Origin: Semisulcospira habei
Taxonomy: Eukaryota > Mollusca > Gastropoda > Semisulcospiridae
DNA: 64,000 nucleotides
NCBI GenBank assembly: GCA_036245525.1
Contig: BTPG01000008.1
Span: forward strand, 26,402,009 to 26,466,008
Reading direction: 5' to 3'
Shown: positions 13,382-63,185 of the stretch, piece after piece
Layout: each line of letters begins with the position of its first letter
Numbering within the stretch: position 1 is the first letter of the stretch
The notes under the pieces: generated by a model
Told to the model about the DNA's origin: nothing
Database searches by the model: none
Seen by the model: the letters and a program-made list of their open reading frames with translations, nothing else
Translations under genes and position numbers: made by a program

Positions 13382-13595
13382 TTAACTCATTCTACCCCAT
13401 CACCGAAATCCCCAAATTTGGCCGTTGTCCTCTGAAGACTGCATTGCAGTGCAGGACACAGATCGACCATGATAGTTCAAGGGTGATGCCAGAATAGCTT
13501 GGCGCCCATAGGCGCCAAGCTATTCTGGCATCACCCTTGAACTATCATGGTCGATCCATATCTTGCTGTGGTGTGTCTGGGGTAGAATGAGTTAA
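13382..13595. repeat. TTAA-ended palindromic element, family A
   Basis: Complete copy with termini TTAACTCATTCTACCCC and GGGGTAGAATGAGTTAA, perfectly complementary over 17 bases. The inner stem is GATCGACCATGATAGTTCAA and complement around GGCGCCCATAGGCGCC. Confidence 0.9.
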
Positions 13596-13987
13596 GACGC
13601 CATCGAGCCGCGAAAAAGAAAGAGAACGAGAGACAGCCCAGATATCATTCCTACGTTAGAATAACCGTTTAGAAAATTGTTATTTTAACGTTTTCTTTCT
13701 AACGTCAATGCAGCGTTCGCAATCTAACGTTAGTCTAATAACCTTATTGTAATGTTTGCATTCTATCGCCGTTAAGGTAACTTAATTATGTTCGTTCGGA
13801 TTACCGCCATCTTAACGTTTCAATTAGTCACCTAAAATGGTTTAGAATGCACACGTTAAAAATTAGCAGTTCAAATGAGCAAAACTTGTAATGTAAACCT
13901 AACGTTAAAAAAACCCAACTAAAGCAAAACTAAAGCATGAGCGAATCATACGCTAACGTTATTATAACGTAGGACTGCTATCTGGGA

Positions 13988-14033
13988 AAAGAGAGAGAGA
14001 GAGAGAGAGAGAGAGAGAGAGAGAGAGAGAGAG
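13988..14033. repeat. (GA)n microsatellite
   Basis: About 22 GA units. The preceding 13596-13987 contains dispersed AACGTTA motifs but no gene. Confidence 0.98.
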
Positions 14034-14174
14034 AAGAATTGAATTGATTGAAACTTATTCTAAGGTGAAGACAGTAGACGCAGCCTTTTACACGTCGCTA
14101 TAACATTAAATAAATAACGCAGAAAGATACATGACAATAAATAAAATAAAAGAGACGATATAATAATAATAATA

Positions 14175-14616
14175 AGAGAGAGAGAGAGAGAGAGAGAGAG
14201 AGAGAGAGAGAGAGAGAGAGATTGATTGATTGATTGTACATTGCTTAACGTTCCGACAGCAACAAGGCTTTCTCAGGACGTGCCTGCACTGCTTGTGAAA
14301 AAAAAAAACAAAAAAAAAAACAGAACATTGAATGTATGTCGCCAGCCGGTCCAATACGTTAAATAGACCTAACACATGGGGCCTAAATAAAGCTAAGACC
14401 ATTTAGCAACACACATCCAATATCAAGAGCTACAGGCAGTGCAGACAGTAGGGAGAGTTTTAAAAAGGCAAACACAGGTGAATGGACAAAGGGTAGACAG
14501 AAACACATGCCCCAGAATAGAGAGAAAAACCCACCCTGTCGGGCTGACCAGGGTGACCCTGGGAACTAAAAAATACCTAACCCCACCCAAGTCCCCCAGG
14601 GCAGACCCGGGTGGGG
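14175..14616 (-). mobile_element. Retroposon R1, copy 1, inserted in a (GA)n tract
   Basis: The body (14222-14616) matches 38547-38933 along its whole length. Landmarks are TTGCTTAACGTTCCGACAGC, GTCGCCAGCCGGTCCAATAC and AGGGCAGACCCGGGTGGGG. (GA)n lies on both sides (14175-14220 and 14617-14716), so the insertion split a GA repeat. The (GATT)n end is the 3' tail, so the element points to the minus strand. A degraded third piece lies at 13338-13380. The Leu/Ser frame over it is repeat-derived. Confidence 0.8.
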
Positions 14617-14716
14617 TGAGAGAGAGAGAGAGAGAGAGAGAGAGAGAGAGAGAGAGAGAGAGAGAGAGAGAGAGAGAGAGAGAGAGAGAGAGAGAGAGAG
14701 AGAGAGAGAGAGAGAG
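14617..14716. repeat. (GA)n microsatellite
   Basis: About 50 uninterrupted GA units. Confidence 0.98.
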
Positions 14717-15054
14717 CGAGAACACAATGAAATGAAAATAAAACAAAAAAATAAACTCGCATTTTTGTGTTTAATAATCGCCTATTACACGGTATACAGC
14801 GGCCTTTAATTAACACGATCGAACAAAACATTTTTTGAAATTCCTTCTTTTTGAGTCATATTTTAAATATTTTTATTGCTAAGAAAAAATGCAAAACGAA
14901 AAATGAACAAACACAAATCGGTCGCTGGCAGTCCACGTCCAAAATATACTGGTATCCTCTCGGTCTGAAGGCGGCTTGAAGGCAATGTATGTGTACCGGC
15001 CTTTCATTTTGGAAGGTCCGAAATCACAGACCAGCACACATATGTACCGTACGA

Positions 15055-15150
15055 CCAGTGTAGGATGATAATACAAGGGTTTTGCCAGATTAGCTTGGTG
15101 CCATCAGGCGCCAAGCTAATCTGGCACCATCCGTGAATACGCGCCATATG
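15055..15150. repeat. Family A palindrome core
   Basis: GCCAGATTAGCTTGGTGCC / GGCGCCAAGCTAATCTGGC stem, with eroded outer arms. Confidence 0.8.
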
Positions 15151-15419
15151 CTGAAGCAGATTGTGACTCAACATTTAGGCGTGGCACAAATTTTGCATTA
15201 TTTTCCCGACTTTGAGATTTTCAAAACTCAGGCTCCATTCCCCCCAATCACCCCCCCCCCCCCCACACCAATCCCCTCCCCCCCTCCCCCCACCCCTTCC
15301 TTGTCACCTCCAGCTCAATGTTATTTGAACAAAAATGCCTCTAGGAAGAGATCGAAGGAACCTGTCGTGTTAAAAAAAAACTAAAACTTTACACATTCGA
15401 GACGTGCAGCAGTGCCGCC

Positions 15420-15482
15420 TATCCTGCCGTGAGACGGCCTTAGTCGCCTGCTTTGCGTTATACCCAAATAACTAACTCACAC
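15420..15482 (+). repeat. SINE 3'-end fragment
   Basis: GCCGTGAGACGGCCTTAGTCGCCTGC...ACCCAAATAACTAACTCAC. Same piece as 3862-3930 and 45190-45252. Confidence 0.6.
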
Positions 15483-15566
15483 TTTGCCGCGTATCGGGAC
15501 ACGGCACGTCTGGAATTAGTTAATATACATCGGTCAGTCCCTTTCGCCCATTTCGCCACAATAGCA

Positions 15567-61362: not shown

Positions 61363-61375
61363 TTTAGTGTCATAG

Positions 61376-61462
61376 TTAACTCTAAAACTCCCAGAACTAA
61401 AGGACTTCCATTCTATCGAATGGACGCCATTTAGTTCTGGAAAGTTGAATGCTGAATTACTT
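61376..61462. repeat. Palindromic element, family G
   Basis: TTAACTCTAAAACTCCCAGAAC, inner GACTTCCATTCTATCGAATGG, TTTAGTTCTGGAAAGTT. Same family as 62720-62800. Confidence 0.75.
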
Positions 61463-61734
61463 TAACTCTGAAAATGCACGTGATTACATGTGCTTGAGAC
61501 TGTGCACTTCCTCAGAATTGTGCTAGTGTTGCAAATGTTTGCACTAATCTATGCAAAATATGTACATGTCCATGTTTATAGATAGAACTGATGTATGACA
61601 TATATGTATCATTATTTGAAACACTGGTGCGTGGTGATAGCAGTGATACGTTTGTGTAAGTTGTCTATGATTAGTGCTCGTAATAGTACTGGTAATACAA
61701 TTTCTTTTCACTTTCATATTATATTCATTGTGTT

Positions 61735-61845
61735 GCCACCTGCAATGAATCACCCATGACAGGTCAAGGGTAGTGCATGATTAGCTTGGGGCCAAGCTAA
61801 TCAAGCACTACTCTTGTACTATCGTGGTTCATCCTCTCTTAGGCT
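61735..61845. repeat. Family A palindrome, shortened
   Basis: TGAATCACCCATGACAGGTCAA / TTGTACTATCGTGGTTCATC with TGCATGATTAGCTTGG / CCAAGCTAATCAAGCA. Confidence 0.8.
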
Positions 61846-62079
61846 TCAGTCTAATGCTCAGCAGCCATGTAGGTTTGGAAATGAATATGAAAACAGAAAA
61901 ATGAAAACACTAAACACTATGAAAAACTTCCACTGATGGAAAAATGACAACACATCAGCTAACTTTTGTTAATGTTTTATTATCATTTGTTCTGTTATCA
62001 ATAAGCCCATTGCGTACCCAAAGCTGCCTAACTGCCGACGCAAAAATCCCAACATTACCCCCTTTCTACCCCCAGCCAA
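61846..62079. other. Intergenic sequence
   Basis: No feature recognised. Confidence 0.4.
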
Positions 62080-62640
62080 CTATGACTCCTCGAACGCTTC
62101 CACCAGCGCTGCCTGCGTACCATCCTGGGCATTCGCTGGAGTGACTATGTCACCAACGTCGAGGTCCTTGATCAGGCTGAAACTGTGAGCATCGAGGCTT
62201 TGCTGCTGCGGACACAGCTCCGCTGGGCGGGGCGTGTCTCCAGGGTGGAGGATCATCGCCTGCCAAGGGTCACCCTGTTCGGCGAGCTTGCTACTGGACA
62301 CCGGCGGAGAGGGGATACAAGGACTGTCTCAAGAGGTCACTTGGTGCCTGCCGGATCGGCCACCGCCGGTGGTCTTCGCTTGCTGCGGGCCGTGGCACCT
62401 GGCGCTCCACCGTTTGCAGGGCGGCTGTCTCCTTTGGGGGCTCTCGCAGGGCTAGCCTTGGGGACAAGCGGCTCGGGAGAGGGGACAGAGATGCCGCGGC
62501 TCAGAACCCTGGCCATACCTTCCCCTGCAGCCACTGCGGTCGAACCTGCCTGTCTCGGATTGGCCTCCGCAGCCACGAACAAGCCTGCAGACGTCATGGG
62601 CAACTCCTATAAAATCTTCGTTCGCGAAGTCAAGCCAAGA
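62080..62640 (+). pseudogene. LINE 3' fragment with C-terminal zinc finger
   Basis: In changing frames it reads LLERFHQRCLRTILGIRWSD YVTNVEVLDQ, SIEALLLRTQLRWAGRVSRV EDHRLPRVTLFGEL, KDCLKRSLGACRIGHRRWSS, and ends FPCSHCGRTCLSRIGLRSHE QAC, a C2H2-type finger found at the C-terminus of one group of animal non-LTR elements. At least two frameshifts. GAAGTCAAGCC at the 3' end resembles the usual ATCTTCG...CGAAG end of that group. Confidence 0.85.
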
Positions 62641-62709
62641 GACCCCCTTTCTGCATGCAGCCCCCAGTACTGTAAACGGTACCGGTGGCTGCATGCACAA
62701 GAGGGTTAA
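62640..62709. repeat. Palindromic element, family H
   Basis: CTTTCTGCATGCAGCCCCCAG / CCGGTGGCTGCATGCACAAG, ending AGGGTTAA. It abuts the LINE fragment. Confidence 0.85.
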
Positions 62710-62719
62710 CCATTAAACT

Positions 62720-62800
62720 TTAACTCTTAAACTGCCCAAACTAAATCACTTCCATTTTATAGAATGGAAGTCATTTAGTTCAGGCAGTTTAAGAGGTAAA
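62720..62800. repeat. Palindromic element, family G
   Basis: TTAACTCTTAAACTGCCC with GGCAGTTTAAGAGGTAA. Inner CACTTCCATTTTATAGAATGG. Confidence 0.88.
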
Positions 62801-62983
62801 AGAAATGTGCCCAAATTCAATTATTACGTTGAACCGAATATTTACAAGATTGGTGTAATAACCTGGCTTTGCAAATATATATGCCTAAAGCAGCATGAAT
62901 ATTCTGACGTCGGTTACACCATGTCTAGACCATGGTTAGAGAGGTTTGTACGATGAAATGCACCATAAAAAAATCAGACACAA

Positions 62984-63185
62984 TTAACTCATTCAGCCCG
63001 ACGACCGTATTTTGGAGGCGTCATCTAATGACTGTATCAGTTGCAGGAGATGATTGACCATGATAATACAAGGGTAGTGCCAGATTAGCTTGGCGCCTGT
63101 CTGCGCCAAGCTAATCTGGCATTACCCTTGAATTATCATGGTCGACCCATCTCCTGCTGAAGTGTGTCAGGGCTGAAAGGGTTAA
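62984..63185. repeat. Complete TTAA-ended element, family A
   Basis: TTAACTCATTCAGCCCGACG / GTCAGGGCTGAAAGGGTTAA. The foldback around GGCGCCTGTCTGCGCC is nearly perfect. Confidence 0.92.

Follow-up and report, generated by a model that had tools for sequence, protein, structure and literature searches.

We analysed a window of 64,000 nucleotides from the genome of the gastropod Semisulcospira habei (contig C8, BTPG01000008.1, positions 26402009-26466008; assembly GCA_036245525.1, 1.98 Gb in 507 contigs) and observed numerous short foldback elements that begin and end with TTAA. Family A, the 13382-type (named after its copy at 13382-13595) and probably also family C and the shorter foldbacks are likely to be piggyBac-type miniature inverted-repeat transposable elements (MITEs) whose palindromes record recurrent template switching. 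An earlier note on this stretch had reported foldbacks with TTAACCC...GGGTTAA ends, and these are real. We counted 37 occurrences of TTAACCC across the window, compared to a mean of 7.98 in 100 shuffled sequences (standard deviation 2.69, maximum 13). Pairs of TTAAC[CT]C and G[AG]GTTAA that lie 60-260 bp apart and enclose a self-complementary 12-mer number six, compared to a mean of 0.015 and a maximum of 2 in 200 Markov-chain sequences; the count is 10 when the palindrome condition is removed, and the reversed-motif control gave 0.

The six palindrome-enclosing pairs lie at 13382-13595, 16533-16755, 16846-17057, 29934-30152, 40252-40465 and 62984-63185. A looser rule, by which TTAA has to stand close to both ends of a full-length BLAST match, added 6798-6975, 17479-17578, 30963-31054, 33952-34166 and 53941-54157, with the caveat that 17479, 30963 and others served themselves as BLAST queries. 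The positions given in the earlier note were accurate to within 1-2 bases; its element at 30964-31053 should read 30963-31054, and the copy that it started at 53941 has CCG after TTAA, ahead of the usual start.

The 13382-13595 element (forward strand) has TTAACTCATTCTACCCCA ends and a palindromic core at 13461-13556 around the loop CATA, with relatives at 94% identity in loci L004 and L033. At 16533-16755 (forward strand), a family C element running from TTAA to TTAA lies within an older family A copy, the right part of which (16458-16788, forward strand) is interrupted by this insertion at TTAA. Two family A elements on the reverse strand, 16846-17057 and 62984-63185, also run from TTAA to TTAA. 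The loop is TTCG (TTCA-like) in the family A element at 29934-30152 (reverse strand) and TGAG (TGAA-like) in that at 33952-34166 (forward strand), while both arms of the element at 40252-40465 (reverse strand) carry the same A-to-G change. Perfect 56-bp stem arms (53972-54087) were found in the family A element at 53941-54157 (forward strand), which folds as single-stranded DNA at -95 kcal/mol (z -20.7). A diverged family A element (70% identity) at 6798-6975 (forward strand) has TTAA at each end, and in the family A core at 39137-39238 (reverse strand) both arms are changed as a block at arm positions 9-12 and 14, the change at position 14 doubling as a subfamily marker. The two shorter elements, both on the forward strand, are a TTAA-ended foldback of its own family at 17479-17578, with ends TTAACCCTCTGG / TTAACCCTTTGG, and a single end-to-end hairpin at 30963-31054, with TTAA and TTAACCCTTTG ends and relatives at 75-85% identity in L041, L052, L053, L056 and L067.

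BLAST with each stem located 27 loci in the window for the family A stem and 17 for that of family C, in place of the roughly 25 and 20 copies claimed before. The density is not specific to this stretch: 11 family A stem loci were also found in 155 kb of piggyBac loci, mostly transposon body, so dense occurrence of family A is not peculiar to the window. In an Rfam scan of the window nothing reached the gathering scores, and at that level its hairpins therefore fit no described RNA family. Searching viral_contigs for a 25-base stem-core pattern yielded no exact match.

Family A, as aligned from the window copies, starts with TTAA-CCCATTTAGCCCCAAG and ends with the complement of TTAA-CCCTTTTAGCCCCAAG; these two terminal inverted repeats (TIRs) differ by one mismatch. 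Its palindrome, with 56-bp arms around a loop of 4 nt, lies off-centre, with 28 bp on one side and 70 bp on the other in the consensus used. The family is short (~214 bp), non-coding, uniform in length and high in copy number, with 4079 candidates in a first-look genome search. A 20-mer of its TIR occurs 1297 times in the genome, and the reversed 20-mer 0 times. In a TIR-anchored sample (99 of the first 100 20-mer occurrences listed, all on contig C1), 36 of the 99 copies had a G-rich TTAA end at a distance of 205-220 bp, which was exactly 214 bp in 13, compared to 1 of 99 in a control interval, and GGCGCC lay within the element span in 68. Among the 20 best copies, which include the query itself, TTAA was exact at both ends in 13 (a count read from the printed sequence) and within 1-3 bases in two more, and five had a changed end. 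The description of these elements as a burst is right only in part, as the sampled family A copies cover a wide range of divergence. On contig C1, three family A copies ~20 kb apart (53434257, 53454048 and 53477034) have a rare left-arm variant in common, probably through local duplication.

Family A and the 13382-type have a common palindromic stem and unlike TIRs, the 13382-type terminal repeat being 14 bp long (CTCATTCTACCCCA). The family C palindrome, with arms of ~29 bp and a 4-nt loop, has a stem unrelated to that of family A. The TIRs of family A, family C, 13382, 30963 and 17479 are all different from one another.

Duplication of a TTAA target, also proposed earlier, is borne out in two ways. 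The 26-base flanks shown for the best family A copies appear unrelated to each other, and the family C insertion provides an empty site. After removal of the C element and one TTAA, the joined flanks of 16533-16755 can be aligned gap-free over the junction with uninterrupted family A copies, which have a single TTAG or TTAT at the insertion point; the right flank lacks ~20 bases at another place, through a separate deletion. The gap-free junction and the single TTAA-like word in the other copies thus identify a nested empty site. Joined flanks were also compared with old repeats at L004/L068 (76%) and L065/L002 (72%) and are consistent with an empty site holding one TTAA-like word; the divergence is too high for these to be proof. 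A segment at L054 was rejected as an empty site, being a neighbouring copy of the same family.

A six-frame PF13843 search scored 116 transposase matches out of 1058 candidates, many of them free of stops within the match. By reading, 26 of 40 transposase loci examined have matching TTAA+TIR ends, which fall into at least seven classes: CCCATATAAGCC; CCCATTATTGCCC/CCCACTAATGCCC; CTCTTACCAGTTC; CTCTTTGACACCG; and CCCTTTCGCCGCC, CTCTTAAACGTT and CTCATTCTACCCC, the last three with one locus each. The CTCATTCTACCCC locus, L044, is two-ended and matches the copy 13382-13595 at 18/18 terminal bases at one end and 17/18 at the other. Its 410-codon frame matches DDE_Tnp_1_7 at 2e-82 and the piggyBat transposase 9c0f at 1.5e-57, and 6x67, titled 'Transposase', was listed as well. 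The L044 ends and frame make the link to the piggyBac superfamily good, and the reading as piggyBac-type MITEs is well supported. The earlier proposal that one transposase mobilised unrelated payloads is not supported: the TIRs differ across the foldback families, and the resident piggyBac elements have at least seven TIR classes. To judge from the ends, several transposases are likelier than one, with each TIR class probably acting on small elements of its own.

No near-perfect palindrome of family A or C was seen within a piggyBac element with located ends. An origin of the stem from larger piggyBac elements was dropped as an idea, since in those transposase loci retrieved for which the element ends could be placed, the stem matches fell outside the element (the ends in L027 and L047 were not placed). 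Beside one TIR, piggyBac elements of the L010 and L038 classes have a small palindrome in subterminal position, with the sequence GCGTCCCATTTTTGGGACGC or a close variant of it. At L021/L022, a 4-kb stretch comprising a piggyBac element and an adjoining 13382-like element is present twice at 99.2% identity, which we take as a recent duplication.

In each of 100 scorable copies out of 114 (14 gapped copies were dropped), we set the left arm against the right-arm complement; L049, a duplicate of a window copy, was left out of the stem, arm and loop tests. Expected numbers of same-change pairs were derived from the changes per arm per copy, with a factor of 1.5 for transitions. The same change was present in both arms 92 times, compared to 13.0 expected, while 12 positions were changed differently and 473 in one arm only. 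The least diverged subset (34 copies, >=93% identity) had 12 same-change pairs, compared to 0.8 expected. In an overlapping set of 46 young stems (identical stems removed before counting, 3 of 113 stems dropped for gaps), 21 same-change pairs compare with a permuted mean of 3.5 and a maximum of 9 in 1000 permutations. Partner positions were both changed 7, 40, 39 and 87 times in four age bins, compared to 2, 11, 17 and 51 for the best of 30 offsets, a control that preserves copy age.

The excess was concentrated in the stem. In 45 copies not chosen by TIR, the terminal repeats had 15 same-change pairs compared to 10.3 expected, so that distant arms are hardly matched up, and the stems of not-TIR-chosen copies (n = 41) had 33 compared to 5.0. 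Within the stem, the outer nine positions had 3 both-arm and 115 single changes; the remaining 47 had 95 both-arm and 407 single changes, with 28 of the 95 at one position. From a both-to-single ratio of 21:125 we estimated by hand that each position underwent ~0.7 correction events during the life of the copies. By hand estimate, the correction rate is ~20 times the per-site substitution rate, an upper figure because a constant rate was assumed and inherited changes were counted.

Gene conversion between copies could in principle generate such a pattern, as a palindrome alignable either way would both swap loops and spread changes, and the 4079 first-look candidates offer thousands of potential donors. 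The concordance is bound to the individual copy, however, and permuting the right arms removes most of it (21 compared to 3.5). We regard conversion as an unlikely explanation of the pattern as a whole and a possible contributor to it. Selection for pairing, under which elements with matched arms transpose well or yield a useful hairpin RNA and compensated changes are kept, is unlikely. It would agree with the matched arms of subfamilies that differ from one another at several stem positions, and a conserved internal region has been speculated to aid piggyBac MITE transposition (in the accessible text of PMC2872659). Nevertheless, single-arm changes are abundant, and selection gives no reason for inverted loops.

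The second signature that we attribute to template switching concerns the loop. Its orientation can be read in each copy because the outer ends of family A are asymmetric. Exact patterns anchored in the left side gave 1256 TGAA and 1509 TTCA loops in the genome. A strict call, which superseded a looser one by alignment column, left 57 of the 114 copies unassigned for want of a clear loop and classified 29 as TGAA-like and 28 as TTCA-like. Nearest neighbours by outer sequence agreed on the loop at 0.474, compared to 0.489 when permuted (z -0.26, n = 57), and agreement among 42 copies of >=88% identity gave z -0.68; as a positive control, 8 of 10 outer variants reached z >3 in the neighbour test. 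Both loop orientations are present, and they have no detectable link to relatedness among the 57 callable copies. Family C stems gave 4 AGTY-like, 8 RACT-like and 7 other loops (19 oriented loops from 47 stems, the other 28 having no clear loop or orientation or lying at an edge).

These results bear on the possibility that two master elements with opposite loops were amplified in parallel, following one old inversion and no recurrent switching. Such a history would account for two common loop forms in an uneven ratio and for a slight difference between subfamilies with left arm GGCTTG (41% TGAA) and GGATCG (170 TGAA and 208 TTCA, 45% TGAA), which is not significant (Fisher p 0.21). It would explain the loops only if they followed ancestry, and no such link was detected by a test that did detect most other variants. 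Moreover, both forms occur within the two left-arm subfamilies and again in family C with its unrelated stem, and arm concordance is left unexplained. We consider two masters decidedly unlikely.

Two further alternatives concern the identity of the elements and the quality of the data. Another TTAA-targeting superfamily, for example Kolobok, is very unlikely: TTAA duplication alone is probably not unique to piggyBac (Kolobok and T2-MITE in Xenopus, as far as the accessible text of PMC6004289 goes), but the CCC or CTC ends argue against it, as do the numerous PF13843 genes with ends of this type and the 18 terminal bases in common with L044. An assembly or library artefact, through switching by the amplification polymerase or consensus errors in hairpins, is extremely unlikely even though palindromes are known to trouble sequencing (PMC4057610, accessible part), the weak points against it being that the three copies at C1:53.43-53.48 Mb have the same TGAA loop, that L075 and L076 are identical and that one both-arm allele recurs in a separate copy.

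We thus favor recurrent template switching within piggyBac-type MITEs. The elements would be non-autonomous, would insert at TTAA with its duplication and would be mobilised by transposases of several resident piggyBac lineages. When a new strand is synthesised through the palindrome, it would switch template to the opposite arm. Snap-back copying would make the two arms exactly complementary, resulting in homogenisation, and a switch across and back would leave an inverted loop. Repeated over the life of the family, such switching would yield mixed loop orientations while keeping the arms matched. Which transposases would move families A and C we infer, as we do the origin of the arm and loop signatures in replication template switching and not in another pairing-based process.

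Several observations weigh against recurrent switching in piggyBac-type MITEs. The 114 family A copies are not a random sample: 68 were obtained by TIR, 25 lie in loci chosen by similarity and 21 were incidental. The oldest age bin exceeds the offset controls by a modest margin (87 compared to at most 51). Over all 114 copies, a single arm position, which is a subfamily marker, accounts for 28 of 98 both-arm changes, and private both-arm changes are scarce (3 of 30 single-copy alleles; 2 of 32 in an earlier private-allele set, a weak test). For L055, whose both-arm allele was found in a single sampled copy, the same left arm recurs in a second copy. The subfamily marker and the few private both-arm changes imply that source elements had already undergone some of the correction, and much of the homogenisation may have happened in them. 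As for the loops, the looser call gave 52 TGAA-like and 36 TTCA-like copies with 26 uncalled and leaned on a TGAA consensus; its neighbour agreement was 0.545 compared to 0.512 (p 0.29) and its stem-based agreement 0.562 compared to 0.510 (p 0.15). The genome-wide ratio of 1256:1509 departs from even (binomial p 1.6e-6), as does that for left arm GGCTTG (336 TGAA and 483 TTCA, p 3e-7). Finally, the search suggested earlier for a partner with matching ends turned up L044 for the 13382-type, and none of the 40 loci examined held an element with the exact family A TIR and a transposase. The criteria for piggyBac MITEs quoted in the accessible text of PMC2872659 are TIRs of 12-19 bp and a terminal motif CC[C/T]T. 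The TIRs of family A and the 13382-type fall within this length; the motif fits the right end of family A (CCCT) but not its left end (CCCA). It is also absent from the 13382-type end (CTCA) and from the resident piggyBac elements L010 and L038 (CCCA) and L030 (CTCT).

If template switching is the cause, its germline activity could be measured from one assembly of an animal genome, and selection need not be the reason for paired 'compensatory' changes in hairpins of this kind. Family A would be well suited to this, with thousands of copies, asymmetric ends for orienting the core and terminal repeats as an internal control. More tentatively, the core might be a self-correcting, flip-flopping cassette in which correction and inversion occur far above the rate of point mutation, possibly as a regular step of element movement via a hairpin or single-strand stage. 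Were this so, the family would record germline template switching across the genome, and MITE palindromes would stay near-perfect without selection.

The window also holds reading frames resembling long interspersed nuclear elements (LINEs) and microsatellites, all named by eye. Two closely similar LINE reverse transcriptase-like frames lie in opposite orientation at 55811-57508 (forward strand, open over 565 codons) and 58067-59780 (reverse strand). Within a family A stem lies a LINE-like tail (15576-16510); the ~11-bp repeat on either side of this tail, AGTGCCTGATT, looks by eye like its target duplication. Long (GA)n and (CA)n microsatellites are present at 13989-14040, 14180-14222, 14618-14716 and ~139-927.

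Like the piggyBac superfamily (PF13843), the present elements have a TTAA target and TIRs starting with CCC or CTC, with DDE transposases in the same genome. Unlike it, they contain a long palindrome and are too short to encode a transposase. The PALTTAA repeats of C. elegans have a name that suggests palindromes and TTAA.

The CMITE elements of Acropora corals, according to the accessible text of PMC2872659, resemble family A as short, TTAA-flanked, piggyBac-linked MITEs. An internal region, its origin given there as unknown, is common to CMITE families with unlike TIRs, which parallels the stem common to family A and the 13382-type. CMITE elements differ in being ~100 bp long with a 75-base internal region; the paper makes no mention of a palindrome, hairpin or secondary structure, and its accessible text reports neither arm homogenisation nor loop inversion. 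Neither was reported for a MITE family among the open-licence literature matches listed, which is weak evidence of novelty. In conclusion, the elements are ordinary in kind and the record of template switching is the noteworthy part. A close counterpart is the correction of quasi-palindromes described by Abraham and Hazkani-Covo (PMC8604942, accessible text), in which template switching between inverted-repeat arms leads to arm homogenisation and spacer inversion, the two signatures of the present core. Those cases were found in yeast coding genes with arms of 7-16 bp (Table 1 of that paper), whereas the arms described here are ~56 bp long and belong to a transposon family with many replicate copies.

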